Positions 29,405-62,979 of a stretch of DNA of 64,000 bases are shown here, in pieces; positions within the stretch are counted from its first letter, which is position 1, and every line of letters begins with the position of its first letter. Source of the stretch: Scolanthus callimorphus (lineage: Eukaryota; Cnidaria; Anthozoa; Actiniaria; Edwardsiidae); NCBI GenBank assembly GCA_033964015.1, contig CM066915.1:10253573-10317572 (forward strand), given 5' to 3'. Under the pieces are notes generated by a model, which saw only the letters and a list, made by a program, of their open reading frames with translations, was not told where the DNA came from and searched no databases. The position numbers were made by a program, and so were the translations under genes.

Positions 29405-30495
29405 ATGGTTGCTTTAGAGTCTTCCCTTCACGAGATATTAATTTTTCAAGCATAGATGACGTCATATCACATGACCACTTCATTTCGCTCATCTAGTGAC
29501 CTAGACTACACTACCAAAGTTTGGTTGTTTTAGAGTCTTCCCTTCACGAGATATAAATTTTTAAGCATAGATGACGTCGTCGCTAACGTCATATCACGAG
29601 ACCACCTCATTTCGCTCATCTGGTGACCTAGACTACACTACCCTAGTGTGGTTATTTTAGAGTCTTCCCTTCACGAGATATTGTTTTTTCAAGCATAGAT
29701 GACGTCATCGATGACGTCACATCACGTGACCACTTCATTTCGCTCATCTGGGGACCTGGATTACATTACCAAAGTTTGGTTAGTTTAGAGTCTTCCTTTC
29801 ATGAGATATTTATTTTTCAAGCGTAGATGACGTCATCGATGACGTCATATCACGTGACAACTTAATTTCGCTCATCTGGTGACCTGGATTACATTACCCA
29901 AGTTTGGTTGGTTTAGCGTCTTCCTTTCATGAGATATTCATTTTTCAAGCGTAGATGACGTCATCGATGACGTCATATCACGTGACCACTTCATTTCGCT
30001 CATCTAGTGACCTAGACTACACTACCAAAATTTGGTTGTTTTAGAGTCTTCCCTTCACGAGATATTGATTTTTCAAGCATAGATGACGTCATCGATGACA
30101 TCACATCACGTGACCACTTCATTTCGCTCATCTGGTGACCTGGATTACATTACCCAAGTTTGGTTGGTTTAGAGTCTTCCTTTCATGAGATATTCATTTT
30201 TCAAGCGTAGATGACGTCATCGATGACGTCATATCACGTGACCACCTCATGTCGCTCATCTGGTGGCCTAGACTACACTACCCAAGTTTTGTTGTCTTAG
30301 AGTCTTCCCTTCACGAGATATTGATTTTTCAAGCATAGATGACGTCATCGATGACGTCACATCACGTGACCACCTTATTTCGCTCATCTGGTGGCCTAGA
30401 CTACACTTCCCAAGTTTTGTTGTCTTAGAGTCTTCCCTTCACGAGATATTGATTTTCAAGCATAGATGACGTCATCGATGACGTCACATCACGTG
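29405..30495 (+). repeat. ~129-bp satellite array with CRE palindromes, ~8 copies
   Basis: Each monomer has TTAGAGTCTTCCCTTCACGA, then AAGCNTAGATGACGTCATCG ATGACGTCA, then CACGTGACCACTTCATTTCG and CTACACTACCCAAG. Several monomers carry the exact palindrome TGACGTCATCGATGACGTCA, two full CREB/ATF sites back to back, next to a CACGTGAC E-box. Spacing between palindromes is 126-130 bp. Confidence 0.9.
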
Positions 30496-31149
30496 TCCGT
30501 GTTACAGCACCCCCCTTGTGGCATAGACAAAATATCCCAAGTATGGCTGTCTTAGCATGTTCCCTTGAGGAGATATAATTTTTCTTTGCATACCACAGGG
30601 TTCCCATGTGTACACGGACGGACGGACGGACGACGGACGGACTGACGGACGGCGTACGCTATAGGTTTAATACCAGAAAAATAAGAAAAAAAAATCATAT
30701 CTACCGAAGGGTAGCTTCTATAGAAGCCGAACTTGGACAAACTTCCAAAGACCATAAGAGGAACTCTACACCAAAGTCACGTGCCCTTACGCCATCAATG
30801 ACGTCATCAAAATGATCCATAATGCCCGTGACGTTCAAAAATCAACTCGATAGTATAATATATAGATTTAGCCACTGGCTAAAAGCGGAGCTCCCGGTTA
30901 TAAAATTTTCTGTGCGAATGAAAGGGATTCCCATGTGTACATGGTTTATACTTATAGGCTTTTTAAGAAAAAAAAAATATCTCTTGATATGTATACAACA
31001 GTGTTTTCTTCGGTATGTTGCTGCATTGACACAATACAAATACAGGGACGAAAATAAGCATCCTGTTAAGTGAGATAAAAACCTCCTTCAGAAAAATTAA
31101 GGTATTAATTCCTCCAAATGGAATGATTCAAAAGTGCAATAAAGAGAAT

Positions 31150-31590
31150 ATTTTTTCAAGCATAGATGGCGTCGTCGATGACGTTATATCACCTGATCAC
31201 TTCATTTTGCTCATCTGGTGACCTAGACTACACTACAAAAGTTTGGTTGTTTTAGCCTTCCCTCGCAAGATATTAATTTTTCAAGCATAGATGACGTCAT
31301 CGATGATGTCACATCACGTGATCACTTCATTTCGCTCATCTGGTGACCTAGACTACACTACCCAAGTTTGGTTGCTTTAGAGTCCTCCCTTCACGAGATA
31401 TTAATTTTTCAAGCATAGATGACGTGATCGATGACGTCACATGTGACCACTTCATTTCGCTGATCTGATGATCTAGACTACACTATCAAGTTTGGTTGTT
31501 TTAGAGTCTTCCCTTCACGAGATATTAATTTTTCAATCATTGATGACATCATCGATGACGTCACATCACGTGACCATGTTACAGCACCCC
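31150..31590 (+). repeat. ~129-bp CRE satellite, second array (~3.5 copies)
   Basis: Same monomer as 29405-30495, with more substitutions: the palindrome is partly degraded (ATGACGTGATCGATGACGTC, ATGACATCATCGATGACGTC). It lies in the second composite unit and ends in the same GTTACAGCACCCCCCTTGTG junction as the first array. Confidence 0.9.
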
Positions 31591-34093: not shown

Positions 34094-34439
34094 GTAGAGC
34101 TTTATTCTTGAATGCCTTTATAGTATTTATTTATTGTCGCACATTCTGTCCCGGCTCTCGTCCGTCCCTGTATTCAGTATTGCCTTTACACGTTCGTCCC
34201 GGGGACTTGGTTTGTGTAGCTTACGTTTACACCTGTTCGCTCATCTCCGGTAACTATTTTTAGTCCGAATTTGCAACTTCGGTTGATTTGTTTAACTCGG
34301 TTGGTTTGCTTTTTCGTAACATGTTTACATTCGCTATTCCATTTGCACTACGGCATTCGTTTGCTTTCTTACTACAGTACCCAAGGGAGTTCACAGGACG
34401 AAATCGCTAATTTTGTTGTCATTCATTATCAATGAATCG

Positions 34440-34800
34440 CCCTGAAAGTTAAGGTTTCACCTTTCATGACCTTTCAGTCTGGCTTGAAAGGTATATTTCC
34501 CTTTTAGTTGACTTTAGTGTACCTTTCAGCATTTTCGACTTTTCAGGTCCTTTCATTTTGAAATAAAAACTTCAAAATACACATTTGTCTCGTTCTGAAA
34601 AGGTCCGAAAGATAAACATGATCTTTCGTGGTCTTTCAGGGTGGCTTGAAAGTTTACATTATCTTTCATGGTCTTTCAGGGTGGCTTGAAAGTTTTACGT
34701 GATCTTTCGTGGTCTTTCAAAGAGGCCTTAAAGTTACCTCAGACTTTTGGATATTTAGTGTACTTTACTCTTTAGGTTCCGAAAGTTCAACAATAGTACT
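34440..34800. repeat. left subterminal cluster of GGCTTGAAAG motifs
   Basis: GGCTTGAAAG occurs three times (about 34483, 34633, 34684), along with many CTTTCA/TGAAAG variants such as GTGGTCTTTCAGGGTGGCTT repeated at ~50-bp spacing. The same motif clusters at the other end (49195-49545). By analogy with CACTA elements these are candidate transposase or accessory-protein binding sites. Confidence 0.6.
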
Positions 34801-35167
34801 CTTGTACTGAAATTCTACCTGACGCTGTCAGTTTATCCTGTCTGTTCAAGTCTTATAATCGACACAATTTAATACAGAAAATTTCACGTTTCATGACGAA
34901 AAAATGATGCTCCCTTCCTCAGCATATACAGACAGAAAGCTGCTGGCAATTACTTCTCCAGCAGCAAACTCTAGCTGCATTTTTAGGTAGTTGAGACAAG
35001 CATAATGTTGCGAAACCGATTGCGTACTTCGTTATTTATATCAGCATCTAAATTGAGATACATTGGGCAATCAGTGCTCACGTGTTATTCTGGCGAGTTC
35101 TTATATTAATGTCATAAAACAAGCTGCTGTTCACTGTATTTACTACTGCTGGTTACGCTCTTTCCGA

Positions 35168-38100
35168 ATGGACGGGTATATTTGGTGTAATCATTGCGAA
35201 AAGGAAGTTTCCCGCTCGACATACGAAAGGCATTTAAGGAAAAGTGGTGCCAGAGAATATATTGTGAAGTGGCGTAGAGTTGCTGGTGAAGTGAGTACTT
35301 CATCAGAAGAAAGCGATACAGGTAAGGCTTTGATTTCTTCTGAATATCAAACAATTCGTTTACATAATTATCAGATACACTACACGAATTGACTTTCAAC
35401 TTTATATTAAAGGCTCTACTCTTGTGTATTCAGATTGTAACAAATCCAATGCAGGAATAGAACATGAACTGGAACAAGCCAAAGAACCGGATGCCGAGGT
35501 AATTTTTTACTAATAATAGTTAACCCTTTAGGCTCGGCTCTGTCGTTCCGCGGGGGGCGGTGTTGCGTTGAGAATCTTTCCACGCAGCGATCTGCCTACA
35601 AACGATTCATTTGATTTTCAAAATAAATATTTGTTTTTGTACTATCAGCAGCACTAAAAAAAGTAGAAGTGTTCGCGCGCAAATTTCCTGCAGATTCAAA
35701 TGACACCCGCTAAATGCCGATGTATATCATCAGCCCCCATCCCTTGTGAAATAAAAGCCACACTTTCCTTTTCACATAAAAATGTCGCGATTTTCAGTTG
35801 AGCCGATATTTCCCATTTTGTGATAGTTTGAACAAAAATCACGAAAGTAAAGTTACGCGAAATGGCATGTAATAAGGGTATCTCGCTCTCCGTGCCGATC
35901 TCTACTGATAGTTACATTTCTTATTGAGGGAAGTGGCAGAACAAATTAAAAGTACTTTTTCAGAAACGTGACAAATTTGCAAATGGAATAGGTTCAATTT
36001 CGATAGAATAAAATTCTAAGGCATCCGTAGGCAAGGGAAACAAAACAAAACGCCAATTACACCGAGGGGATTCGTTCTTTTGAAATTTGTTATATCGAAT
36101 TGGCATCTACTGACATTTATATCAAATTGTAATGCAAATTGTCAGTCATAATCATGAAACGTTTTGCAACAAATTTTAGTGGAGACATAATTATTTATAT
36201 TTATTTTTGTGGCCTCTTCATAATATAAATATTCAGTGATTCAATTTGCAAATCACTTTGAGGCTATCATGACAAGAAAAAGACAGTGGTAGGCACGTGC
36301 CTACCTGTAGACGCTCGTTTTATTGCAGCTATTGTACAACATATTTCAAACTGTTACATTTTCAAGTATATTCGTAACAAGTGATTTTACAGTGTATAAT
36401 TTCATTTCTCGCCTTCGAGAGGGGGTGTATTAGAGACGAGGATTACTAAACGTGTCTCACTCGCTTTACACGATATATATCTTTTTTGGCTGATAACCCT
36501 ACACGATAGTTACATTTAACAAAAGATAATTGGAGCCTTTTCGGTATACTGAATTGAGCTTACTATCGCCTCGTATGCCTCTGAAACTCAGGCACTTGCA
36601 GTATGGAATATGCAGCAGTGGTAACTGAAACGGGAGAAAAAATGGGTCAATATATTTTATCATCTTCTATATTTTTATCGAGGGTTAGATTAATTATTTA
36701 TATTTTCTTCGATTCTTAGGAGTCTACTGGGCCACAAGTAGAAAGTAGTAATAGCGAAGATGAAGCTAACGTGGATCAGAGTAGCGGAAGCGCTAGTGAC
36801 GACGCATCGTCGACAAGTGACGAAAATGCCCAAGAAGAAGTGTGGAACGGCGAATTACAAGAAGCGCTTTTACGCGACATCACGGAACCACCCAAACCTT
36901 TGCCAGAGCCCAAGCCCTCAAAGGGAATGATAAAGAAGATAAATGCTCTAGTCTTTTGGCTTATTTATTTCATGCTTGTTTGGCAAACAGCTTGCCGAAT
37001 TAGTGATAATGGCATGGCATGGATGCTACGGTTTTTTGTATCCTGGTTAAAAGTATTAGGGATTGAGTTATCAAACGATTCAGAAAACTTATCAAAACTA
37101 GTCATGGCCTTTCCTACATCCTTATACATGATGAGACAATTCCTCGACGTTGACAGAGACGACTTCGACAAGTTTGTCGTTTGTCCCAAATGTACGAAGC
37201 TCTATGCATACGACTCGTGTTTAAAACTTGTTAACAACAGACAGGTCCCAAGAACATGTACAAATTATTGGTATCGACGAGGAAAGAAGCAGGCTTGCAA
37301 CTCCCCATTAGTTAAGAAAGTAGTCCTTTCAGGTGGAAAGATATCCTTCTATCCAATCAAGTATTATTGTTCCAAGAGCATTATCATGCAACTTGAAAAG
37401 CTTCTCCTACGTGGAAATCTTGTTGATCTTTGCGAGTCCTGGAGAGACAGAGCAGGTAAGGAAAACACTATGTGCGACGTATACGATGGTAGGCTATGGA
37501 AAGACTTTTCGTGCGTGAATGGAAAAGCCTTCTTGAATTGTCCTTACACTTATGGAATGATGCTGAACTTCGATTATTTCCAGCCTATTAAACACAGGAA
37601 AGACTACTCTGTTGGGGTGTTTTATATTGCATTGCTGAATCTCCCCCGATCAATACGATTTAAATGGGAGAACATCATAGTTGTTGGTATTGTACCCTCT
37701 ATGGACAAAGAATCAAAAACTCTGAATGAGTTCCTGGTACCAGCTCTCGACGAATTGAAGGCACTGTGGAAAGGGGTCAAAATGAATTCTTCTCTTGGTC
37801 CATATCCACTACAGGTTCGAGCAGCTCTGATAAGTACCGCTTCAGATGTCCCAGCCGCAAGGAAACTTTGTGGCTTTAAGGGACATGCTGGAAGAGTAGG
37901 ATGTTCTCATTGTTTGAAAGAGTTTCCTGGAGGTTTTGGGGAAAAGAAGGATTATTCTGGTTTCCGACGGGCATCCTGGAAGAAGCGCACAAATGAACAA
38001 CATAGAAGAGTGGCGGAACAAATGAAGAGAGCTACCACACTTATACGACATACATCTTTAGAAAAAAGTTTGGAATAAGTCATGTTAGCGCGCTACTAGA

Positions 38101-39409
38101 ACTGGAATACATTGATATAGTACGATTTTGTACAGTCGATCCGATGCATAACCTATTCTTAGGAACTGCGAAAACAATTTTCCATATCTGGACAGATCAG
38201 GATATTCTTTCTAAAAAGCAGCTGAAGGAAGTAGAGGAAAGAATAGGTACAATTGAAGTTCCCAGTGACATTGGACGACTTCCAATGAAGATATCTTGCA
38301 ACTCAGGATCGTATACTGCAGAACAATGGAAAAACTGGACATTAATTTACTCTATCGTGTGTCTAAAAGGAATTCTCAAAGATGAACATTTTAAATGCTG
38401 GCAAACATTTGTATTAGCATGTCAGGATCTAGTTCAACCAGAAATTTCCAACACTCAGCTAGAGGTTGCCGATCGTAGGCTCCTCAAGTTTTGTACTACA
38501 TTTGAGACACTGTACGGGAAAGAGGCCATAACTCCGAATATGCATCTGCATTGTCATCTGAAAGATATCATCGCTGATCATGGTCCTGTAACAGGATTTT
38601 GGTGCTTTTCGTTTGAAAGGTACAACGGAATATTAGGAAGTACAACAACAAATAAAAGGTCCATTGAGCTACAGCTGATGCGAAAGTTTACCATATCCAG
38701 GTATCTCTCTGAAATAGAATTTCCTGATCATTTCAAGGGTGACTTTCAAGGGTTATGCACGCAAGATACAGACAAGTCATCAGAAACACCACGCATTGGA
38801 GAAGTAGAGGAACAACTGGAATTCCAATCAATTGCAACGTTAAATTCTCTTAGGAATGTAAACTGGTTGAACAAGAGACTAATTGTGCTACCATCAGTCC
38901 ACAGGATAAGCACCCTAGATGATGATGAAATGCAGCTACTTATTCAAGTTTATCATGTTATGTTCCCAAATTATGATGTTAAGATAGAAGACATGAGCCA
39001 GATAATCTACAAATATGGCTCAGTGACTGTCGGATCTGTCTGCTATGGATCAAAAATGCAGCCACGAGGGATTCGATCGAGCGGCATAATGGCTTCCTGG
39101 TCTAATGGAAATGGCCACATTTGCACTGACAAATTTACCTTGACACCTGGATCTGTGCAATTATACTTCAAACACTCTGTTCAGTTGGGAAATAACTACC
39201 ATGAGTTTGTGTTTGCCTACACGCGTTGGTATCAAGCATATGAAAACTGTGCTGAAATTGGAAATCCAGTGATGGTTTGGAAAGCAACATACCAACCAGC
39301 AGGACCAGCTATTTATCTGCCGATACAAAGAATATATTCTCGATTTGGACAAACAATGAGAGATGGAAAAATAATAGTTTGCCCACTTGTTAGAAAAATT
39401 ATAGCTTAA
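35168..39409 (+). pseudogene. Tnp2-type (CACTA/EnSpm) transposase, three exons, one frameshift
   Basis: Exon 1 (35168-35321) encodes a zinc-finger-like start (CNHCEKEVSRSTYERHLRKS); exon 2 is 35434-35498; exon 3 starts at 36720. All three junctions have GT/AG sites and matching phases, giving about 970 codons. After a Ser/Asp/Glu-rich stretch come a Cys-rich segment (CPKC at residue ~228) and the Tnp2 catalytic region with DPMHNLFLGTAK at residue ~546. That motif is characteristic of the Transposase_21/Tnp2 family, which acts in the nucleus by cutting and rejoining its element's ends. The frame breaks in an AAAAAA run at about 38059-38064: the upstream frame ends at 38078, while the next frame is open through the junction to 39409. 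This is either a real inactivating indel or a homopolymer assembly error, since no other lesion is visible. It is the only transposase inside 34392-49563. Confidence 0.85.
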
Positions 39410-39939
39410 ATAATGATGATAGACATCCTAGCAATTTCATGTTAAAGCATATGAAAAAAGAAGAGCATCAGAGACAATCAGCTAGGAGTGCCACCTAACC
39501 AAACACAAAGCAATTAGAGGGTGAATGACTTTCCATCAGTCATGGTAAATGCAAAAAGTAACGACTACCATGAATATAAAATTTAGTTTTTTTTTATTTG
39601 ATACAATACGCAAAATTAATTCTTCGCTTTTGAACAATGGCTGGTATGCATTTGCGTATTAGGTGTATATGACATAAATATAGCTAGGACTTTTCAAGGG
39701 ATCACTCACAAATAGTCTGATTGTTAAATAACTGACGATTACATGTACAGTGTAGAGATGAAATAGAGTATATCCAAATGGTTGAGCCCATGTATTTACC
39801 ATTTCCCCATCATACACCTCCTTACCCAAATCCTTTCCCATTTAAGTATTGCTATATCTTTTAGCTAGGGCACACAATGCAACAGAAAAGCTTTACAATC
39901 CATCTGTAAGTGCAACCCTCCCTAGTGCCAAACATATTA
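39410..39939. other. spacer after the transposase
   Basis: Non-coding AT-rich sequence downstream of the transposase stop. I see no convincing polyadenylation context nearer than scattered AATATAAA-like strings, and no repeats. Confidence 0.4.
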
Positions 39940-40386
39940 CCGGGGGGGGGGGGGGGGGGAGGGTACTTGGCTTGATATAGGGTGGGTGGGTATGTGCCGC
40001 TGAGAATTTCAAATGCGGCCCTTGTTCTAAAACGATTTTTCAAGAAAAGCTACCCCGTTAAATTTTTTTGCACCCAAATGAGACCCTGTTCTAAAGAGAA
40101 ATTAATCAAACCTGTAAATAAAAATTGTTGCTGTTTACATGTTACGGTATTTTCTGTAATAGAATGTTGAAGCTTGTTGAATTCTTTACATTTAATAAAA
40201 CAATACGTGACCGCTGGGTCGCTTCCTAGAAGATTTTACTGGGTGGTCTTTATTATCATACCCCGTTCTAGTGGATGGTTCCTAATCGGTACCCTGTTCT
40301 ATCGGCTGGAGGAAGACAATGGGACCCCGTTTGGCGGCACATACCCCTATAGCTCTTGTAAGGGAGTACCCCCCCCCCCCCCCCAG
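39940..40386. repeat. MITE bounded by poly-G and poly-C
   Basis: A ~17-base poly-G run followed by AGGGTACTTGGCTTGATATA at the left is mirrored by TATAGCTCTTGTAAGGGAGT then ACCCC and poly-C at the right, so the ends are inverted repeats. Inside, CCCTGTTCT/CCCGTTCT phrases recur. It sits between the transposase and the kinase-like gene, downstream of both. Confidence 0.65.
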
Positions 40387-41599
40387 ACATATTGCACTTC
40401 TATCTGCACCATAGATGCATGTACCCATTGGGTACCTTTCTATTTCTTTTGCCACTTGCCATTGGATGGGAAATCCAGGTGGAAGTGTGTTTTACTATTG
40501 ACCATCATCTAAAACATGTTCTAATGTGGCCTGGATACAATTAATGGAAGGCCTGATTCCTGGATTTTCATGCATACACTCCTTGGAAAGCTCATGCAAT
40601 GGGATGTACTTACAAGGGAGGATTCTTAACATTGCTCCAAATGAGTATACATCACTTTTAAATGACTGACAGTGAGTACCTCTTATCAGCTCTGGTGCAA
40701 TATGGAAATATTTTTTTCTGTATTTCTTTTGTTCCTCTTTGCTTAGTTTATAGTATTTAGCATCATTAGTTCTTCGACATTTCCCAAATCAATAACTATA
40801 GGGTGAAGGGTGTCCTTTCCATTATCTGTTATTATTACATTATCACCTTTAATGTCATTGTGGAGCAGGGAAATACCATGGATGTGCTCTATAGCATCAG
40901 CAATTTCCTTATAAATTCTGGCAACATGAGATTGAAGTGTCAGGATCTTCTGATGTACTGCATCACTGAGGGTTACACATTTCCCTTCAATTCCATGAAA
41001 CTGGGTAACTAGAAGAAGTGGTGCACCAGTGAGACAGACTCCAAACAGCAAAGGTAGACCTTTGTATAAAAACATACAAAATATTAAATGCATGTCTCTA
41101 TAATTATTTGGTTTTACAAGCTTGGTTAAATATAAATAATATGTTGTCTTTACTCTCAATACTTTATATTCTCTTTCCCCTATGTAGAGTCTCTTAAGTA
41201 GGAATTGAAATTATGTGTTTTGTCGCCTGTTGAACTTTGTCGAGTTCCTTTTTTTCCTCATTCACTACTTCCTATTGTTTTATTTTCTATTCAGCATTTG
41301 AAATCCAAGTACCCAATTATTTTGATTGTTCAGCCATCTTGTATGTCTGCAATTTTACAAATTTCAGACCCCCCTACAAAATTGCTCCTAAAAATAATTA
41401 TATGCACTTAGATGTATTTAGGGCACTGGAATATTTGGCCTACTGCTGCGAGTAGGAGTGTTGTCTGGTCCAATTGTTGTTTGTATTATTTTTCTGCATG
41501 CACCTATCAATATCATTAATGTTTTAATTTCCTCCTGTTGAAAAAAAAGGGGGGGGGGGGAGATTTCAAATTTGAACATGAGAAGATAAATTTTATGTT

Positions 41600-41975
41600 A
41601 TTTTTTCCTAGAGGGCACAGTAACAAATTCTGTATTCTGATTGGTTCTTAGAGCACATGCACTGGCAATATTTTCCTATCTCTGATCTAGGTCACAGTAA
41701 CCATGCTTGTTTTCATCGAAAAAATCAATTTTAGAGTTGGAAAAAAATATATGTTATTTACCGGCTGGGAGGTCTGTATAGGGAAAAACTGTGATCGAGG
41801 GCTGGAAAATGTTGACCGAGGCCGGAGGCCGAGGTCAGCATTTTCCAGGCCAAGGTCACAGTTTTTGCCTATACAGACCCACCTAAAGCCGGTAAATAAC
41901 TTATTTATTTTTTTCCAACTCTAAGAATGCAGAATTTGTTACCGTGCCCTCTAGGAAAAAAATAAAATAAGTTAT
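41600..41975. repeat. long foldback MITE in the kinase intron
   Basis: CCTAGAGGGCACAGTAACAA at the left is inverted at the right (TTGTTACCGTGCCCTCTAGG). Inner arms with GGAAAATGTTGACCGAGGCC mirror each other around a GGCCGGAGGCCG centre. It fills part of intron 2 of the kinase-like gene. Confidence 0.85.
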
Positions 41976-42125
41976 TTACTAACTTTATGTCAGTCTATAT
42001 AGGGAAAATACTGTGACCTTGGCCTGGAAAATGTTGACCTCAGCCTCTGGCCTTGGTCAACATTTTCCAGCCATCTATTACAGTTTTTCCCTATATATGG
42101 ACCTTCAAGCCAGTAAATAACATAT
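41976..42125. repeat. second, partial copy of the same foldback family
   Basis: TATATAGGGAAAATACTGTG and its inverse CAGTTTTTCCCTATATATGG surround a GGAAAATGTTGACC...GGTCAACATTTTCC palindrome, homologous to the inner arms of 41600-41975. It directly abuts that element. Confidence 0.75.
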
Positions 42126-43147
42126 ATATCTACAAGCGTCAATGTGTTATTCTGCTTTATTATATAAACATGGCCAATACTGTTTTGTGAAAAAATGTTC
42201 GATTGGATGAATTTGCAGTTGTGGGCATTATTGTAATTTTTCACGTGTGTGAATTACAATATTTCTCAGTGGCCAAAATCCTGATAAAGCATTAAAGTTT
42301 ATATGTAAAGTTCTATATTCTTGATCTCACCATACCTGGATGGTTCAGCTTATTAAGGACCGAAGCCTCCCAAACAACCTCATCTTTTGAAACATGTGGT
42401 TTAAATTGCTTTACAGCAACGACAATTCCACGGTAGTCCATCTTGATACATTCACCAAAACAGCCCTTTCCAATCATTACCTTGTCACTACCATCCAAAC
42501 TTCTTTTTTGGATTTCCCTGCAATAAAGCAAATTAACTAGTGAAAATTGATGTTTTAATGCATTATCAAGGTGGTAAGCAGCATTTTCCTGGTGGGATAT
42601 GTATCCAAGTTAACAGCAAACTGAAAAACTACAAAAACTGTGTCTTCTTGAAAATATATATATTTATTCAGAATGATGTATTGTTTGCCAAAGAACCCAG
42701 GACATACTGTTAATACCAATAGGCTCTGCTAGCAGGGACCAAGTCATGTACCAGAAACCATTGTGCTCTAGAAAACATTATGCTGCCCCTTTTGTTCAGG
42801 AAATTATTTATCTTGTTCTTGAATCTTCAGAGGAATTTGCTCATCAGAATAAGAAAAATAAAATACAAGAATAATTATATAATGATGTTAATACTATTAG
42901 TGCAAAGTGGCTATTGGCAATTTTGGTGTCCCTCAAATTTTCTCATTCAATAATGTTTCTTAATTTGACAGCATTAGAGCGACTTTCAGATGACTGTTGT
43001 GAGTAATTTGCAATTATTTTATTACACTCCTTAGAGGTCTTGTCCATAATTGGTTTAAGACAGGTTATTATAGAGTTGAGCAATGCTTGGCAAAAAAATA
43101 TTGTTTCTAAAAAGTTTGATACTGGCCTATTGCCTTGCTTTTGGTGT

Positions 43148-43278
43148 CATTTAAAATTCAGTTTCTCAGGTCTACATGAAATTTTTTTCAGCATGGGAAC
43201 ATTCCCATGGTAGAAATAAGCATTGGTAGTTCCCCAAAAAAAATTTCATGTAGACCTCAGAAACTGAATTTTAAAGTT
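43148..43278. repeat. foldback repeat in kinase intron 1
   Basis: AAAATTCAGTTTCTCAGGTC TACATGAAATTTTTTT on the left is precisely inverted on the right around GCATGGGAACATTCCCATGG. The stem is about 40 bp and nearly perfect. Confidence 0.8.
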
Positions 43279-44256
43279 TTCTAAAATAGTACAAGAATGT
43301 GTATAGGATAGACATTGACAATATTTTTCATGCTTAACGCAACATTTTTTGTAAACTTATAGTTTCTCAGATTCCCTTGAGAATTGTTTGGCAGGACGAT
43401 AACAATTTTATATCACTATTATTTATTTATTTATACCTTTCAAAAAAACACCAAAACCAAATGAAAAGATCTGTTACTTTTAGCAACAAGATTTTTTAAC
43501 CCTTGATGTTCAAATTGCTCAAAGTTCTAAAGCAACCTGTCCTAATCTTTTGGTGATTATTTTCACTGCAGTCATATGAAATTCTTTATATTATAAACTA
43601 TAGGTTTCCATAGCAGAGCTATTTCATTTTTTTGGCCAAAAAATACTGCAAGGTTCCCTAGCTAAGGAAATCCAAATAAAAAGAGATAATTCTCTTTTGG
43701 AGTCATATACCTACATGTAACCTAAACAAATAGTCATTTGTCCTTAGCAAGAAATGTTATTTTATACTAAAAATTAGCAAATGTTTTGATCTATCCCTAT
43801 AATGTGATTGTGACAATATCCACACTTCCCCCCCCCCCCCCCTCCCAAACGGAAGGATGTTAAAAGACCCCCCGCCCCCTAAAAAAGGAAAAAACAGGGG
43901 GGTCAATCTCACCTGATATTTGAGCTCATCATTTTTGCTTGTTTGTGCTCTTCTTTCCATTTATTCCAAGCATATGTAGACAGCGTCCGTTCCTTTGCGT
44001 ATCTCTTCTGCCAGAATTCCAATTTTCGCCTGATCGAAGCCACTTGACTCGTGTAATTTCGAGCAACTCTTGCTAAGCTCCTTTCCTTCCTTTCTTTTTT
44101 CGTTAATTCGCGTATGGCATCCTTTTTTGCCCGATTCCTCCTAATTCGCTTGTTCCTCAAGGTCTCCAGCTTCCTCCTTTTCATTGTTCTATTCACGGTT
44201 TGGCCGCCTTCGACATGCAATCTTCCATTGAACCCACTGTCAGCAAGCTCTGCCAT

Positions 44257-44699
44257 GGCAGTACTCGCACAATGTGCTGATTAAAACCACCTTAAGCAGT
44301 TTATCAGCTTGATAAAATGGTCGAATACAATGGTCTCGGCGTCCTTGAGCTTCTATTCTGATTGAAAAGCTATCTGTATGAGACAAATGCTTTTTCTTCG
44401 GTGTAGTTGTGGCGCGAATTTCGCGATCTTCGAAGAGAAACCGCTGATTCCGTATCGCAGGAGCGGATCAATTTCGTCATTTTCCCTCACGTGAACGTAA
44501 ATTAATTCCAACTTCTTTCATCATGCAATTAATATCTATGCCTATGTGGACTAATGATTGGTCGAAATACTGTCTCGTCGATTGACGTTTGACCGTTTAG
44601 ATTTGCATTTTAGGCGCCAACTTTGTGCGCGCATTTTCATCACAAGACGAACGACCGTTCTACTTCTGGGTCTAGTAAGCCTTCTCTGTTTTCTCAAAA
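44257..44699. promoter_or_regulatory. divergent promoter region between kinase-like gene and 313-aa gene
   Basis: The two first exons start 443 bp apart and point away from each other. The gap is relatively CpG-rich, has no TATA box near either start, and includes TAGGCGCCAACTTTG (about 44611), similar to an E2F-type site, and a CACGTG at 44489-44494. A shared promoter would co-express both cargo genes; this is inferred from layout. Confidence 0.45.
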
Positions 44700-47474
44700 A
44701 TGGCGGCAGAAGCTGATGTACAACAACCGCAGACTTCTTCAGAAGAGTATCTTGGGTACTTAACGCGTGATCTGAACAGGATAGTCCGATCTAACGAGAC
44801 GCTAAATGAGGAGAATAGGGCCTTAAGAGTTGCTCTTGAGGAAAGAAATCGCAATCAAGAGCAACTCTTGAGGGCCCTGAGTGAACGCCTGGAGGCCGTG
44901 CACCAGACACAGCAGCAACAACAACAGCAGCAACTGGCTCGCGGGAGAAGAGGAAGAGGCTATGGACGGGAGGCACGACGGATTGTTGTCAGTCCTCGAT
45001 GCAGAGTAAGTGCGATTAAAATGTACCCGTGATAGGTTTCTTTCCTTATATTCCTTATATATTTTAAGCCACAATATTCGCTGTTGAAGAAAGACAGCTT
45101 ACCTTGGCCTTTTTTTACGGAAATAATGTATTCGGAAGGCTTTGAAATAACGTATGCCATGCCTATGGTGATAATAAAGAACACACTGTACTGCATTAAA
45201 ATTTACACTGTACGTGAAAAGTGTGATGATATTGCTAAAATTGCATGTACAAAAACAATATTTGGCTATTTGCCTCTTGCTTTATTTTTCAGAGATCTGT
45301 AAAGGCAGTTTATAGAACACTATTGGGTAGGGAAGACTTCAATGGCTTTTATCTTGATGAGATGTAAGTATAATTATTCATTCCATTTCACACTCAGCAC
45401 CGAGATCGGTAGAGCCATGTCATTTGACCCCTGCATCAATTATCACCAAGTCCAAGCAACAAAAGACTATAGTTTTACATCTTACTCTACAAGTGTCAGT
45501 CACGCAATACTACTGTAGAAATTAACAACATCAGGAAATTTGCGACGCGGGCTTATAAAAAATGGCAGGAAAACTATCGGCTTCCGTTTTTGAGATCCGT
45601 TGTTGTCCATTTCCTTGTTATCGAAGAAATATCCATGAAAGACGAAGTTCCGACTGTTCGATGAAACGGTCAGGAGGAGACAGGTATTTAAATATGCCTT
45701 TCCCGTTTTGTAGGTTCGAATCTGGCAACAACCGCATGTTATGTGACAGGGTGATAGAAGAGGTCCTCCATTGTAACGGGGGAGCAGACCAGTGTCAGTG
45801 GACGAGAGCGATGATGGAAGGTATATGTTAAAAATAGCTTAATGGACGATTTCAGCTTTAAGTGCGCGCTTTCTTATTTATTCATAAATCCCAAAGCCAT
45901 GTCCCACAACGCAACCACAAGAATGCAGCGCGTGCTTTTGAACAGTCTGTTTGTTCGACAAATGTCCTACATCTACTGACATTCAGCGCGTGCGCGCGTT
46001 ATAGCTGGAATCGTCCATTCGAAGCAGCAAACATAATTTCAAAGGCGTAATACAAGCGCCGTGGATTAAAATTTAAAGGCAATAGTTCATCTATTTTTAT
46101 CTTTGTTTTTTTTATATAAAGGGTACCCTCCTCCTAATGTTGTGCGTTTGTATGTGTGCCCTATCTATTTTCGAAGTTACATGGCGAGAAAAAGCGGTGT
46201 CTATCAAAGGGCCCCTACTCAAGCCCTGTGGATTATTATATGGAAGTTTTTTGAGTGGGGAACGGATATTTGGGTGGGCTCTTAAATGGTTTGGATCACT
46301 CCTGTTTTTTTAGAAATAACAAAAACACACGAAAGAACGTGTGAAACATAAAACTCCCTACTAAAACATTTGGGACCTCCTCACGCCCCCTGACCGTATT
46401 ACCTCTTCAAAAAAATTGTTTTTTTCATTTCCTCTTTTCACTCATCCTATGACTTTTGTGTATGTTTCAGCTGTGTTACAGCGATACTATTTGTCCCTCT
46501 ATGAAAAGGGCAGAATGGAGAGAGCGGAAACCCCTATCGATTACGAGGAGCATAAACGGAGAAGTCGGTGTAATGGACGAAAAAGAGAGGTAACAGAAAA
46601 TGATCTAAGAATGAGCTACGTTTGCCATCGTTTTATACTCCCCATTGGCATTGCCCTCTACACGAAATTGTGTGTCAAAAATTGGTACCATTGTGTGTCG
46701 ACCTTGCGAACGCGCGCGCGCTCACTTTCTGGCGTTCGTATGTGAGAAATACTGGACGGGAGAAGGCTTATGCACTAGGTAGTAGCCATAAAAAAGCATT
46801 TTAGATGGGTATATAGGGAGCCCTTACGTATTCCTCTACATTCTTGTTTAGAGGGGTATGTAGGGGATAGAGGAAAGGGCCGCGCCTCTTTGTTACTGCA
46901 TTTAGAACGTTTCCCATCTGCTTTCAATTTAACCCCCGAATGGGTAGCGCTGCCTTTCCCCTTTGGCTCCCCTGGTATGCCATGGCGTTATTGTTTAAGT
47001 AGTGTAATTGAAAAGTATGTCTAGTGCTAGAAATTAAAAATTGCGTGAAACGACCATTGAGTTATTTTTTACTTGGTCTTCTTGTCGAATAAAACACCTT
47101 ATTGAATGCCTGTTGCCTTTTTCTTCCTTACCCAGAAACTAACTCGTCGCACCCTCGCCCTGGAGAAAGTAAAGTGGACTGCAAGAAAGAAGGGGAAGGT
47201 GGCGGAGGTACTAGCAGCAGACTGCATGAGCAGCGAAGAGAGTAGTTATGAGGAAGACGAGGGGGGGAGGAGAAAGGTCGTCCGCTACAAAAGGAGGAAG
47301 CTAGCATGGGAAAGCAATAAATTTGCATCATATAAGGTGAAGCTCGACAGGGAATATCGGAAGTCCCTGACCCAAAGAGCTAAAGATCGTATTTTGCCCA
47401 GAGTAGATGGGGAGCACCCTTCAAGGAGACCAGTCCCAGAGGATCTCCCTGAATGGGCAAAAAAGGATCTTTAG
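44700..47474 (+). CDS. intact five-exon gene, 313-aa protein of unknown function, transposon cargo
   Basis: Exons 44700-45005, 45293-45363, 45714-45820, 46471-46589 and 47136-47474 have GT/AG borders and phases that join into one uninterrupted 942-nt frame. The protein has a leucine/glutamate-rich coiled coil (residues ~15-68), a Gln8 run (71-78) and an Arg/Gly-rich basic stretch (81-94, RGRRGRGYGREARR). A Cys-containing middle (CNGGADQCQW at ~148) follows, then an acidic MSSEESSYEEDE patch (~231-242), and a basic C terminus ending PEDLPEWAKKDL. The acidic patch followed by a Trp- and Arg-containing segment and a closing WA resembles, from memory, a multicopy cnidarian family linked to transposons; this was not checked. 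Features suggest a nucleic-acid-binding accessory protein. It is the only undamaged gene in the element, which hints at selection or recent insertion. Confidence 0.75.
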
Positions 47475-47526
47475 AGCTTTGGGCCGGCGCTCATCTTGCG
47501 GGGCTTATTTATTGCTTTCCCATTGC

Positions 47527-47712
47527 CAACCATAACCATCAGGCGTTGTTTCTTACGACTCAGTGAGGACGCTTCGTCGCAGCGTCGTAAGGTGCTTAAC
47601 GAACAAGTTAAGCACGATCATGTTCAACATTGAATTTCTTACAATCGTGCTTATGACGAAGCGTCCTCGCTAAGTCATAAGAAACATAACGCCTGGTGGT
47701 TATGATTCTTAC
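47527..47712. repeat. foldback MITE downstream of the 313-aa gene
   Basis: CATAACCATCAGGCGTTGTTTCTTACGACT at the left mirrors AAGTCATAAGAAACATAACG CCTGGTGGTTATG at the right. Inner arms (GAGGACGCTTCGTCGC / GACGAAGCGTCCTCG; AAGCACGAT / ATCGTGCTT) extend the stem almost throughout. Confidence 0.85.
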
Positions 47713-47837
47713 GACCCCTTATGGCGCTAGTGGGGACCGAGCTTTAGACGCAGTTTTCACATGACGTAAGACTCTCGTGCTTCCACTTATACATACGTTG
47801 CTAGTAAAACCAACCCTATGGGTCCCTCTCTATGGTA

Positions 47838-48322
47838 TATGCCTTTATCACGCGATATTGATTAGTAATATCTAATAGTTATCAGAAAATGAAATCCAGT
47901 TTCAAATTCTACACATCCGTATTAGTAAAACTGCAAGGTTTTGAAAGAATTACTTGAAAACCGGCTGAGATATGAATTTTCTAAACGTCGTATTCTGGCT
48001 TACTTTTTACAAGGAAATGTATGGGCAAATACGCCAAGACAAGGCTGGACGGGCATCGATGCCCGAGTTGACTATTTGACGAAAACGAGTAGTCTAATGT
48101 TTTAGTAGAAACCCACTTGCATACTACCTTCGAGTTGTTGCTAAAAAGTATTTGTTTTCATGGTTTTAGAAAGTTTTGCGCTAGCGTTTTCGCTACTCAC
48201 TATCTATTACGTGATAGATAGCGAGTAGCGGAGCCAATCAGATGGCAGGATTCGTGATAGTATGCGAGTGGGTTTCTACTAATATATATTATTAATCAAT
48301 ATTGCGTGATAAAGGCCTATTG
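47838..48322. repeat. nested foldback repeat
   Basis: The outer arms GCCTTTATCACGCGATATTG and CAATATTGCGTGATAAAGGC are inverted. A further inverted pair lies inside (AGTAGAAACCCACTTGCATA at about 48104 and its inverse near 48262), and an innermost palindrome (GCGAGTAGC/GCTACTCACTATC) near 48195-48230. Confidence 0.75.
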
Positions 48323-49037
48323 GAGCCCTTTTTCTTTGTATATATATATATATATATTTAAAATATAACTAGGATACAACTCGCGCTCTTGTTGGTCCGA
48401 ATCTATCTATTTCACCGATAAAGTAATGGTTCTCCTCCGTTTTATCATAAAAAACATTTGAGCACAACGTTCTATGACTTTATCGGCGAAATAGAGCACT
48501 AATGATGTTGGGAGAGACACTCGAAGCATTTCAAAATCGCTCGCATGCGGCTCGTGATTTTACAACGTTCTCGTGTCCCAAAATCATGAGATAAAGTCTA
48601 ATTCTTAAGAAATACAGAAAAACATGGAGGAAAAAGGACACGCTAGATATTAGACATAGAATGGAATAGAAGATGTTCGATTCAAATGGTTGTAGATATT
48701 CAAGTCTTGTAAAATGTGATGATTTTTAAGTGATTGTAAAACTGTAAAACAAATATTGAAAGTTATATGTATATGTTCAGGCAAGCCTGAAAGCAAGAAA
48801 GTTGTTCGATTCACATGATCGTTGTAGATATTCAAGTCATTATAAGCGATTGTATTATAAGTGACTGTATGGTTATAGAAGGCCGCAGCTTTGATTAAGT
48901 TCGAACAAACCTATACAAGTGATATAAAAATGAATAAAGATGTATGATAGCAAAATATGTCGTAGTTCCGTCTGATCCTCGCACCTCGTTATCCACATCG
49001 CTATGCAAGTAGTCCTTTTCACAACCCCTCGCTTTAT

Positions 49038-49148
49038 TGTGATTCAAATTGGAATTCTAGCCTGAAGTAGAGTCTACTGTTGACCAAACAATACATTGGT
49101 AAACAGTAAACTCGACTTCAGGCTAGAATTCCAATTTGAATCACAAAA
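49038..49148. repeat. foldback repeat, near-perfect 45-bp stem
   Basis: TTGTGATTCAAATTGGAATT CTAGCCTGAAGT is exactly inverted at the right end. Only the central ~25 bp differ. Confidence 0.85.
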
Positions 49149-49194
49149 GAGCGAAGAACTGTGAAACAGACTATTGCGCAATAAAGCACTAACC

Positions 49195-49545
49195 ATTCAA
49201 TGGCTTGAAAGGTGTCAAAAGGGCACAAAAGTAGATTGCTGTAAACACGCAGCCCAATGACTTTATAAACCTTTCCAGTCAATTAATATCACATTTTGTA
49301 ACCTTTCAAGCCACTTAAATCTAACGAAATACGTATTTTATATTATTTTGTTATTATACCTGAAAGCTTAACAAAACTCTACCTTTGTAAACTTTAAATC
49401 GCACTGGCGAAATCCTTCATTACTTGCTTTTCAAGTCGCCTTGAAAGATGATGAAATGTTAGTTTCCGAAATTTCAAGAGAACTCGAAAGGTACCTGAAA
49501 CACCTCATTCGAGTACCTTTCAGTGTCCTTTCAAGCCACCGAAAT
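49195..49545. repeat. right subterminal cluster of GGCTTGAAAG motifs
   Basis: GGCTTGAAAG (49202), CTTTCAAGCC (49307, 49529), GCCTTGAAAG (49437) and many TGAAAG/CTTTCA variants lie inside the right terminus of the 15.2-kb element, mirroring 34440-34800. Confidence 0.6.
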
Positions 49546-49694
49546 CTGTTATTTCGTCCTGTGGTTGTACCTGCTTTTATGTCTTGTGTTTTGGGTGTAC
49601 TCGCAATTCTAATTTCGTATTTCCTCTTCATCTACTCGTAAACTTTTGGTCCTTATGTTTTCTCTTCATTACGGGAGCCGGGCTCGGTTACAGA

Positions 49695-51990
49695 ATTGCG
49701 GCTAGATAATTTGTGTGCACGGTAGTAACTACTAGGGGTATGTGTGCAGTGGTAGCTGCATGGGATAATTGTGTGCGCAATAGTAGCTGCATGGGATAAT
49801 TGTGTGCGCAAAAGTAGCTGCGCGGGGCAATAGTGTGCGCAGTAGTAGCTGCATGGGGTAATAGTGTGCGCAGTAGTAGCTGCAAGGGTAATAGTGTGCG
49901 CAGTAGTAGCTGCAAGGGTAATAGTGTGCACAGTAGTAGCTGCAAGGGTAATAGTGTGCGCAGTAGTAGTTGCATGGGGTAATAGTGTGCGCAGTAGTAG
50001 CTGCAAGGGTAATAGTGTGCGCAGTAGTAGCTGCAAGGGTAATAGTGTGCGCAGTAGTAGCTGCATGGTGTAATAGTGTGCGCAGTAGTAGCTGCAAGGG
50101 TAATAGTGTGCGCAAAAGTAACTTCAAGAGGTAATAGTGTGCGCAGCAGTAGCTGCAAGGGGCAATAGTGTGCGCAGTAGTGGCTGCATGGGGTAATAGT
50201 GTGCGCAATAGTAGTTGCAAGGGTAATAGTGTGCGCAATAGTAACTACAAGGGCAATAGTGTGCGCAGTAGTAGGTGCAAGGGTAAAAGTGTGTGCAGTA
50301 GTAGCTGCATGGGGTAATAGTGTGCGAAGTTGTAGCTGCATGGGATAATTGTGTGTACAATAGTAGCTGCACGGGGCAATAGTGTGCGCAGTAGTAGCTG
50401 CAAGTGGTAATAGTGTGCGCAGTAGTAGCTGCATGGGCAATAGTATGCGCAGTGGTAACTGCAAGAGTTATAGTATGCGCAGTAGTAGTTGCAAGGGGTA
50501 ATAGTGTGCGCAGTAGTAGCTGCAAGGGTAATAGTGTGCGCAGTGGTAGCTGCATGGGGTAATAGTGTGCGCAATAGTAGCTGCAAGGGTAATAGTGTGC
50601 GCAGTAGTAGTTGCAAGGGGTAATAGTGTGCGCAGTAGTAGCTGCATGGGTAATAGTGTGCGCAGTAGTAGCTGCATGGGGTAATAGTATGCGCAGTAGT
50701 AGCTGCATGGGGTAATAGTGTGCGCAGTAGTAGCTGCACGGGGTAATAGTGTGCGCAGCATAGCTGCATGGGATAATAGTGTGCGCAGTAGTAGCTGCAG
50801 GGCTAATAATGTGCGCAGTAGTAGCTGCCAGTGTAATAGTGTGCGCGGTAGTAGCTGCAGGGGTAAAAGTGTGCGCAGTAGTAGCTGCAAGGGTAATAGT
50901 GTGTGCAGTAGTAGCTGCATGGGGTAATAGTGTGCGCAGTAGTAGCTGCATGGGGTAATAGTATGCACAGTAGTTGCAAGGGTAATAGTGTGCGCAATAG
51001 TAACTACAAGGGGCAATAGTGTGCGCAGTAGTAGTTGCAAGGGTAATAGTGTGCGCAATAGTAACTACAAGGGGCAATAGTGTGCGCAGTAGTAGCTGCA
51101 ACGGTAATAGTGTGTGCAGTAGTAGCTGCATGGGGTAATAGTGTGCGCAGTAGTAGCTGCATGGGGTAATAGTATGCACAGTAGTAGCTGCAAGGGTAAT
51201 AGTGTGCGCAATAGTAACTACAAGGGGCAATAGTGCCCAGTAGTAGCTGCAAGGGTAAAAGTGTGTGCAGTGGTAGCTGCATGGGGTAATAGTGTGCGAA
51301 GTTGTAGCTGCATGGGATAATTGTGTGTACAATAGTAGCTGCACGGGGTAATAGTGTGCGCAGTAGTAGCTGCTAGTGGTAATAGTGTGCGCAGTAGTAG
51401 CTGCATGGGCAATAGTATGCGCAGTGGTAACTGCAAGAGTTATAGTGTGCGCAGTAGTAGCTGCAAGGGTAATAGTGTGCGCAGTAGTAGTTGCAAGGGG
51501 TAATAGTGTGCGCAGTAGTAGCTGCAAGGGTAATAGTGTGCGCAGTAGTAGCTGCATGGGGTAATAGTATGCGCAGTAGTAGCTGCATGGGTAATAGTGT
51601 GCGCAGTAGTAGCTGCACGGGGTAATAGTGTGCGCAGCATAGCTGCATGGGATAATAGTGTGCGCAGTAGTAGCTGCAGGGCTAATAATGTGCGCATAGC
51701 TGCATGGGATAATAGTGTGCGCAGTAGTAGCTGCAGGGCTAATAATGTGCGCAGTAGTAGCTGCCAGTGTAATAGTGTGCGCGGTAGTAGCTGCAGGGGT
51801 AAAAGTGTGCGCAGTAGTAGCTGCAGGGGGTAATGGTTTGCGCGCTCAGTAGTAGCTGCAAAGGGTAATCGTGTGCGCAGTAGTAGCTGCATGGGGTAAT
51901 AGTATGCGCAGTTGTGGCTGCATAGTGTAATACTGTGGGCATTCGTAACTACAAGGGGTAATAGTGTGCACAGTAGTAGCTAATAGGGAC
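49695..51990 (+). repeat. ~30-bp minisatellite, about 75 copies, with 971-bp higher-order unit
   Basis: The core is AGTGTGCGCAGTAGTAGCTG followed by CA(A/T)GGG(G)TAAT, in 29-31-bp units over 2.3 kb. Rare variants recur in the same order 971 bp apart, for example GAAGTTGTAGCTGCATGGGA at about 50326 and 51297, and AGTGGTAACTGCAAGAGTTA at about 50450 and 51421. This shows amplification of blocks. Long minus-strand open frames (up to 477 codons of AHTIT/CSYY-type repeats) are by-products of the repeat. It lies in the intron between the two zinc-knuckle-gene exons. Confidence 0.95.
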
Positions 51991-52269: not shown

Positions 52270-52788
52270 CCCGACCGGGTCAAAGTATTAGAAGACAGGG
52301 TAAAAGCCATGGAATAAGAGAGGGCATCTGAGAGCTGCACTGTCGCATTAGCTTCCTTGAGGCGTTACCTTAACAGGCATATCACAATGTTCGACCGGCT
52401 AAAGGTTATCGAACTCTTGCAGGCTCTTGTGAGGACATCACGTTCCCAGGCCCATGAGAAAGCGAAAAAGGATTCAGCCGCCCTCGATGAAGTCACTGCT
52501 AGGCTCTCGTCTATCGAGGATGCTCAGCTCCAGCGGTTATTGGTCGGCCTTCTTGGTGACCCCATCCGCGCCAAAATGGCCAAAGAAGCTGCCTCGATTT
52601 TGAAGGGAGGGACCAAGCCTCAGCCGCTGTTGGGGCGTACCCTCAGGAGGAACAGCTCAGCCCCGTACCAATACGTGCAATGTTATAATTGTTACAAGTG
52701 GGGTCATTATGCTAGAAGTTGCCCTCTCCGAACCCAGCAAAGGGGAAGGAATTCGGGCCGAGGACTGTGGAATGGAGCTCAGTACTAA
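52270..52788 (+). pseudogene. CCHC zinc-knuckle (gag- or TnpA-like) terminal exon with premature stop
   Basis: A strong acceptor (long pyrimidine tract then TTGTAG) precedes 52270. The frame PDRVKVLEDRVKAME is interrupted by TAA at 52315-52317, then continues open to 52788 with a helical Leu/Ala-rich region (LQALVRT...AKKDSAALDEVTARLSSIED). It ends with a zinc knuckle C-x2-C-x4-H-x4-C (CYNCYKWGHYARSC, 52680-52721) and a basic RGRNSGRG tail. Such knuckles bind single-stranded nucleic acid in gag proteins and some transposon proteins. The frame is in phase with the donor at 34094. No reverse transcriptase or integrase follows. It is best described as a decayed structural or DNA-binding protein gene of the outer element. 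Confidence 0.6.
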
Positions 52789-62552: not shown

Positions 62553-62559
62553 TTGCTTG

Positions 62560-62979
62560 CTATTTTGACAAAAGCGTAAACGCCGTGCGAGGAGATGTTT
62601 TCTGTCTCTTGGTTGAAGACGACTGACGCGGTTTCCTGGCTCGCTTACGTTTTGTAGCCTTTTTCCTTTTTCCTTCTCCGGACTGATTTGGTGGCGTCAG
62701 AGTGACGTCAGAATACATTCGCTTTCCAGATTGCGCGACCTTGTCAAAATTGATTTCCTCTCCGTTCATTGCGTCTTTCGCGAGCGATACCCCTTCTTTG
62801 AGTGCAGCTTGTCCTATCATGTTCGCTTTAGGAATAACAGCTCTAAACAGTCCCCTTAGCCACCGACCAAGACCATATCATTTTTGTATGTCAGCTCCGT
62901 GAAACGCTGGTAAGCTACCACCGTTTTGCTGTGCCTGGCTAATGTAGTAATTCTTGTAAAACTCAGCTAAACGCCCCAT
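62560..62979 (-). pseudogene. Polinton minor capsid protein (pVI/pX-like), premature stop
   Basis: ATG at 62979 starts MGRLAEFYKNYYISQAQQNG, followed by a Gly-Gly/Ser site suggestive of protease processing. Codon 34 is TGA (62880-62878). The frame then continues through a Gly/Leu/Arg-rich amphipathic region (YGLGRWLRGLFRAVIP), a helix, and a Lys/Arg-rich tail (KRKKATKRKRARKPRQ) to 62560. The plan of cleavable N terminus, amphipathic segment and basic tail matches the minor capsid proteins found upstream of the capsid gene in Polintons. The shorter frame from Met 62820 is only the part after the stop. Confidence 0.75.

Follow-up and report, generated by a model that had tools for sequence, protein, structure and literature searches.

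The DNA analysed here, referred to as the window, is a stretch of 64,000 nucleotides from Scolanthus callimorphus (Actiniaria, Edwardsiidae), covering positions 10,253,573 to 10,317,572 of contig CM066915.1 (assembly GCA_033964015.1), forward strand. At 34392-49563 it contains a DNA transposon in which a Tnp2 transposase gene (plus strand, three exons) is accompanied by an antiparallel kinase gene (three exons) and by a five-exon gene lying head to head with the kinase gene. The parts of this element, in window positions, are as follows.

34389..34391, no strand: left target-site duplication GTT, 3 bp, matched at the right end
34392..34404, plus strand: left terminal inverted repeat CACAGGACGAAAT, mirrored exactly at the right end
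34405..34811, no strand: left subterminal motif cluster (GGCTTGAAAG / CTTTCA), by 6-mer density
35168..35321, plus strand: transposase exon 1, BED-like finger (GT-AG junctions, translation; weak zf-BED match, E 0.035, below cut-off)
35434..35498, plus strand: transposase exon 2 (translation)
36720..39409, plus strand: transposase exon 3, Tnp2 domain (PF02992), frame broken once in the window copy
40495..41059, minus strand: kinase exon 3 (HND, DFG and APE motifs), frame broken once in the window copy
42336..42517, minus strand: kinase exon 2 (glycine loop, VAVK; Pfam match, translation)
43913..44256, minus strand: kinase exon 1, encoding a basic N-terminal region that is conserved in an alignment with kinases of anemones and octocorals
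44257..44699, no strand: candidate shared promoter, the 443-bp head-to-head region between the kinase gene and the five-exon gene, partially conserved with the related locus C2c
44700..45005, plus strand: five-exon gene, exon 1 (translation, GT-AG junctions)
45293..45363, plus strand: five-exon gene, exon 2 (translation, GT-AG junctions)
45714..45820, plus strand: five-exon gene, exon 3 (translation, GT-AG junctions)
46471..46589, plus strand: five-exon gene, exon 4 (translation, GT-AG junctions)
47136..47474, plus strand: five-exon gene, exon 5 and stop (translation; 313 aa in all)
49144..49550, no strand: right subterminal motif cluster, by 6-mer density
49551..49563, minus strand: right terminal inverted repeat, complement of CACAGGACGAAAT
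49564..49566, no strand: right target-site duplication GTT, 3 bp, matching the left flank

A preliminary description of this DNA had proposed one complete CACTA-superfamily element with exact 13-bp inverted ends and a GTT duplication, and both ends were verified: the window contains a single CACAGGACGAAAT (34392) and a single complement of it (49551-49563), with GTT flanking both. The mirrored end clusters that it had described were borne out by counts of the 6-mers CTTTCA, TGAAAG, CTTTCG and CGAAAG, which gave 16 matches in the left 420 bp and seven in the right 420 bp, compared with 0.53 per 420 bp in the interior of the element and 0.63 beyond its ends. Six exact copies of GGCTTGAAAG/CTTTCAAGCC are present in the window, all within the two ends of the element, and the right 300 bp are 72% identical to those of C2c. 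Such subterminal motif clusters are a feature of plant CACTA elements. The element also shows the other marks of the CACTA/EnSpm superfamily, namely a Tnp2 transposase, a 3-bp duplication and termini of the form 5′-CAC..GTG-3′ (CACAGG..CCTGTG), the form given for EnSpm in the available part of PMC12730594. The literal CACTA terminus of plant elements is replaced by CACAG, which makes the element EnSpm/Tnp2-type rather than CACTA in the strict sense; the earlier CACTA label therefore holds for the superfamily (CACTA/EnSpm, Tnp2) but not for the termini.

The 13-mer end was then sought in the whole genome (597 Mb, 302 contigs). The result showed 31 exact copies compared with three of a reversed control, which rules out a chance pairing of the ends. 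Three further copies of nearly 15 kb were found, on contigs C2 (15176 bp), C9 (15207 bp) and C16 (15001 bp). Pairwise substitutions among the window, C2 and C9 copies amounted to 0.13-0.19%, and C16 differed from these by about 0.70%. Matching 3-bp flanks (GTT, GAT, GAA, ATG and ATA) were present in five of the seven copies with both exact ends, while two copies on C5 share the non-matching flanks TAT/ATG. The preliminary description had left room for copies lacking both accessory genes, with those genes at fixed host loci; no such case was seen among the near-15-kb copies, all four of which hold the transposase, kinase and five-exon genes (damaged in C16). That nearly identical copies sit at new sites, each with a 3-bp duplication of its own, indicates that the element moved recently and that the three genes moved together. 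These results demonstrate that 34392-49563 is a real, well-bounded, recently mobile CACTA/EnSpm-type (Tnp2) transposon.

Three longer intervals delimited by exact ends, of 23.6 and 49.7 kb on C5 and of 52.1 kb on C15 (the last compared without its middle part), give gapped matches to the element and presumably contain inserted DNA. The two enlarged C5 copies (C5:16227803-16251403 and C5:17558151-17607889) have identical flanks on both sides, which suggests that one of them probably arose by segmental duplication of the other and not by a separate insertion. In the three pairs formed by the youngest copies, 10 of 14, 13 of 19 and 10 of 14 one-base indels fall in single-base runs of at least three; some of these indels, and hence frame breaks, may be assembly errors.

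The transposase identified in the preliminary description was upheld, the protein matching Pfam tnp2 (Transposase_21, PF02992) with an E value of 7.8e-15, above the family cut-off. Its catalytic residues were assigned by motif: the window protein has the CxxC motif and, ahead of the last acidic catalytic residue, the C(2)C plus H(3-4)H arrangement of CACTA/EnSpm transposases. H(3)H and FxFERxN-type motifs were found in all 13 Tnp2 C-terminal parts compared, and the DxMHN motif in 10 of the 13, being missing from the loci L027, L031 and L032.

The reported spliced kinase-like gene is indeed aboard, with three exons that match Pkinase (PF00069) / PK_Tyr_Ser-Thr (PF07714), but its frame is broken once in the window copy. 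It is intact in the C2 (C2a) and C9 copies, where the glycine loop, lysine, HxD, DFG and APE motifs are all present, and damaged in C16. No alpha-kinase family was among the Pfam matches of the kinase exons. At the eight other kinase loci examined, a glycine-loop motif, a VAxK or VCxK lysine, HND and DFG were present in all, and APE in seven, L032 having no APE in the matched stretch. The motif HNDIK is suggestive of a serine/threonine (Ser/Thr)-type kinase, and its presence suggests that the kinase is of this type. Kinase exon 1 was matched at the related loci L025, L033 and C2c, and by eye at L026; its basic N-terminal region is conserved in those kinase relatives whose sequences reach that region. 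The second intron of the kinase gene contains a palindromic nested inverted repeat (41601-42130) resembling a miniature inverted-repeat transposable element (MITE), and another palindromic, MITE-like stretch, bounded by G and C runs, lies between the transposase and kinase genes (39931-40392).

The kinase gene occupies the same place beside transposases of several Tnp2 lineages. A transposase C-terminal query gave at least 96 genomic matches. The searches scored part of the candidates (91 of 366 for the transposase, 112 of 375 for the kinase), and rows were merged before counting, so that 17 of 96 transposase and 22 of 113 kinase rows were dropped as extra pieces of the same loci. A kinase match lay within 10 kb of Tnp2 at 31 of the 79 merged loci, likely a lower bound given the partial scoring, and in all 31 it was downstream and antiparallel. 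The chance expectation is that about 0.28% of kinase rows, or about 0.3 of 91, would lie in that position (binomial p about 2e-55, assuming independent rows, which copies of one family are not). Eleven of the 31 transposases are at least 74% identical to that of the window and 20 are at most 66% identical; with 20 of 31 below 70%, the association does not reflect one family counted repeatedly. For the remaining 60 of the 91 kinase rows, no Tnp2 was listed within 10 kb; 50 of them are less than 40% identical and may represent kinases of the host or belong to other elements. Two sets of multi-copy kinase-like frames, also without a listed Tnp2 within 10 kb, encode 292 and 295 aa with 32-35% identity to the kinase and perhaps belong to other mobile elements (set 1: C12:1447347, C4:24339191, C3:665497, C5:11080330 and C2:16422922; set 2: C1:43790822, C2:3578589, C2:36224621 and C48:868407).

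Diverged loci were examined individually. The closest relative, C2c (L047/L048), has the same gene order and the same 13-mer end, with 74% identity in the transposase, 55-72% in the kinase and 48-85% in the five-exon gene. Besides C2c, 11 diverged loci were fetched, hand-chosen from the transposase matches and mostly those with long open frames, and a kinase was found at seven of them. L025 and L033 (transposase 60-61% identical) carry the kinase and the five-exon gene in the order and orientation of the window, with five pieces of the five-exon gene in L025 and its first part only in the 6-kb stretch of L033. In L026 and L034 (46-47%) the kinase is present in three pieces and the five-exon gene is not recognisable. 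L027, L031 and L032 (38-40%) have a different type of kinase, which in L027 is a single open frame of 431 aa.

Comparison of the window type with C2c gave proportions of silent and protein-changing differences (pS/pN) of 0.73/0.18 for the kinase, 0.76/0.19 for the five-exon gene and 0.64/0.14 for the C-terminal part of the transposase. Counted per site, silent change is about four times protein-changing change in all three genes, with silent sites near saturation; judged from these substitution patterns, long-term constraint on the kinase, the five-exon protein and the transposase is evident between diverged relatives. Among the three youngest copies, variable sites numbered 0 of 2033 in the kinase and five-exon coding regions, 5 of 2906 in the transposase and 32 of 10199 in noncoding DNA (Fisher p 0.007 for kinase plus five-exon coding versus noncoding). 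The kinase and transposase trees are compatible, as far as their supported branches go: both contain the supported groups (L027, L031, L032), (L026, L034) and (L025, L033), and the grouping of the window with C2c is supported in the kinase tree and unresolved in the transposase tree. Deep branches of the kinase tree are weak and the tree carries long-branch warnings; it places anemone and octocoral kinases beside L026/L034, and the L027-type kinase may or may not share an element-borne ancestry with the other kinases.

The five-exon gene is the only intact gene of the window copy, the transposase and kinase frames being broken. It is, as previously described, an intact spliced gene transcribed divergently from the kinase gene, head to head at a distance of 443 bp, and with its GT-AG junctions joined it encodes 313 aa and has no internal stops; the C2 and C9 copies likewise carry it intact, whereas in C16 it is broken. 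The head-to-head region of the window copy aligns with that of C2c over 71 bp at 91.5% and over 239 bp at 68% identity, whereas four introns (two of the kinase gene, two of the five-exon gene) gave no matches at the same threshold. This conservation is consistent with a shared promoter but falls short of proof, so that of the likely shared promoter suggested earlier, the head-to-head pair and its partly conserved spacer stand and the promoter itself is unproven. No known domain was recognised in the five-exon protein, Pfam, PDB sequence (best E 0.36) and fold searches yielding no significant match, and a scan of viral contigs with the five-exon alignment found no relatives.

Searches in other organisms returned five relatives of the five-exon protein, including three from Acropora (45-48% identity) and one from Exaiptasia. 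The kinase search returned 47 proteins, the best from Actinia tenebrosa (45% over 94%) and the next from Paramuricea, with Exaiptasia included. The Exaiptasia relatives of the five-exon protein (P0005) and of the kinase (P0015) are both listed on a contig of 227694 bp, which suggests that the two are probably linked there as well. The transposase search gave 191 proteins at E <=1e-20, and the 120 matches listed name octocoral, stony coral, oyster, abalone and lancelet. The nearest relatives point to an anthozoan host. One Acropora palmata isoform begins with a segment resembling transposase exon 1 (E 3e-7 in a small comparison) and continues as the five-exon protein; if the gene model is right, the first transposase exon and the five-exon body form one transcription unit in that species.

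The best reading of these data is that the kinase is a working part of the element and that, in one sublineage, a TnpA-like helper encoded by the five-exon gene is another. The preliminary description had treated the two as packaged passenger genes, a view that the data do not support: the kinase holds a fixed place across several Tnp2 lineages and shows long-term constraint, which suggests that the element makes use of it. The two accessory genes fit working components of the element better than cargo, and for the product of the five-exon gene a protein of the element is likelier than a passenger. The full proposal, a recently active CACTA/EnSpm cut-and-paste transposon with a working kinase and a TnpA-like helper, is in our judgement somewhat more probable than its negation. 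Cut-and-paste movement is the safe reading of the ends, duplications and Tnp2 protein, and the Tnp2 protein would cut and join the element ends. In the plant model, TnpA binds subterminal repeats and a Tnp2-type protein cuts. By analogy, the five-exon protein may bind the GGCTTGAAAG clusters and control promoters, a role suggested by its conservation, its position head to head with the kinase gene and the dense end motifs in the same element, and also by the possible splice to transposase exon 1 and by a structure model of the Acropora relative P0001, in which a long helix, a helical domain and a basic tail are predicted at low confidence. The kinase would be transcribed divergently from the helper, possibly from a common promoter, and could phosphorylate the transposase, the helper or a factor of the host's chromatin or repair machinery, which may set the timing or strength of element movement or silencing. 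A bolder version, which we hold only tentatively and regard as possible but doubtful, is that a whole animal CACTA/EnSpm lineage carries a kinase of its own as a control module that is in every case convergent with the transposase and has co-diverged with it, and that phosphorylation regulates movement or disarms the host.

Several findings weigh against the preferred interpretation. The transposase frame is broken in all four near-15-kb copies, at differing places. Among the matches listed, 48 of the 79 Tnp2 loci have no kinase, and four of the 11 diverged loci (L028, L029, L030 and L035, transposase 42-44%) have no kinase match in 6-10 kb downstream, L028 having only a weak five-exon match (E 0.003); these numbers imply that some Tnp2 elements can do without the kinase. 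For the five-exon protein, Pfam gave no match at a meaningful E value and no family common to six members, the P0001 model is of low confidence (mean predicted local distance difference test score, pLDDT, 57.9), and a fold search with it found nothing significant (best E 1.1). In the close pair L025/L033, the ratio of protein-changing to silent substitution rates (dN/dS) is about 0.65 for the kinase (two silent and five protein-changing changes) and 0.67 for the five-exon gene over 147 codons. In the genes aligned (with the C2a kinase as reference), the damaged copies C5b, C5c and C15 show more protein-changing than silent differences from the window type, in the transposase 21 versus 12, 23 versus 12 and 22 versus 15, respectively; this pattern is as expected of decaying copies and lends selection no support.

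Three other explanations were weighed. The kinase may serve the element against the host, blunting defence, silencing or the DNA-damage response, with no direct role in transposition. Its constraint, its retained catalytic motifs and its presence in several Tnp2 lineages but not in others would fit such a function, and TET/JBP enzymes of fungal transposons have been read as anti-silencing factors that counter methylation (PMC12730594, in the part available); no host target is known, however, and the tight convergent arrangement beside the transposase fits a regulatory role equally well. We rate this explanation as unlikely, though the most probable of the three alternatives. The genes could also be captured host passengers, useless to the element, as in gene-capturing plant CACTA elements, for which gene fragments are described in the accessible part of PMC1947982. 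The 60 kinase rows without a listed Tnp2 nearby, and the little constraint seen in the recent changes of L025/L033 and of the damaged copies, are in keeping with this. Passengers would nevertheless be expected to be fragmentary and variable among copies, whereas the genes here retain their introns, are near saturation relative to C2c at silent but not at protein-changing sites, and show a kinase fixed in place and orientation in 31 of 31 cases with a tree compatible with that of the transposase. Capture is accordingly disfavoured and considered improbable.

Even less probable, to a degree that we give it very little weight, is that the kinase and five-exon genes form a separate mobile unit or a host locus merely adjoining Tnp2 copies. 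Some kinase pieces do lie 23-32 kb from the nearest listed Tnp2 (for example C11:11450125 and C1:43870501), but such distant pieces can be insertion-split copies, as the 23.6- and 49.7-kb C5 copies appear to be, and a single pair of ends with one duplication encloses the genes in all four near-15-kb copies (window, C2, C9 and C16). A working kinase inside the transposon, with a helper in one sublineage, remains the reading that we prefer.

Eukaryotic DNA transposons are generally regarded as encoding a transposase with, at most, a single helper. The present element shares with plant Spm/En and with animal TRC elements (SmTRC1) a Tnp2 transposase, CA..TG-type termini and short inverted repeats, and, like Spm/En and SmTRC1, it combines the transposase with a possible second DNA-binding protein, here putative. 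Spm tnpA/tnpD and alternatively spliced SmTRC1 products are described in the available text of PMC1636069, in which the word "kinase" does not occur. The element differs in its ends, which are CACAG here, CACTA in plants and reported with a CCC core in animal TRC elements; in its 3-bp duplication, compared with a 2-bp direct repeat in SmTRC1; and in its divergent and convergent three-gene layout with a kinase, unlike Spm/En and TRC elements. Fungal IS3EU is likewise a DNA transposon with a kinase gene opposite the transposase, but it belongs to another transposase superfamily (6-bp duplications), is found in fungi rather than an animal and encodes an alpha-kinase (PMC12730594, as far as available), whereas the kinase here is a conventional protein kinase (PF00069, PF07714). 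IS3EU therefore provides a precedent for a transposon-borne kinase, in another superfamily and with another kinase type. Host-type enzymes on DNA transposons are also represented by the TET/JBP dioxygenases of fungal transposons (available part of PMC12730594) and by the VTD deubiquitinases of Helitrons, cnidarians included (available part of PMC9741609), both of which differ in kind from the kinase here. No report of a kinase-bearing CACTA element in animals was found in the open-access literature searched by title and abstract start, with Repbase outside the search, which is not proof of absence. If our interpretation is true, some transposons bring their own signalling enzyme, which would offer a handle on how animal transposons control their own movement or the host response; for annotators, the caution is that a kinase gene found in such a genome can belong to a mobile element.

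An Rfam scan of the window gave no matches at the gathering threshold. An open frame of 378 aa without a Pfam match (61560-62696, minus strand) is reminiscent of a Polinton-type protein. A second open frame, of 156 aa (52318-52788, plus strand), has a CCHC zinc knuckle just under the Pfam cut-off and resembles a piece of a retroelement Gag. Tandem repeats with a unit of about 125-128 bp form long arrays at 29451-31573, and a 31-bp minisatellite of about 73 copies (49741-51981) begins 178 bp past the right end of the element.

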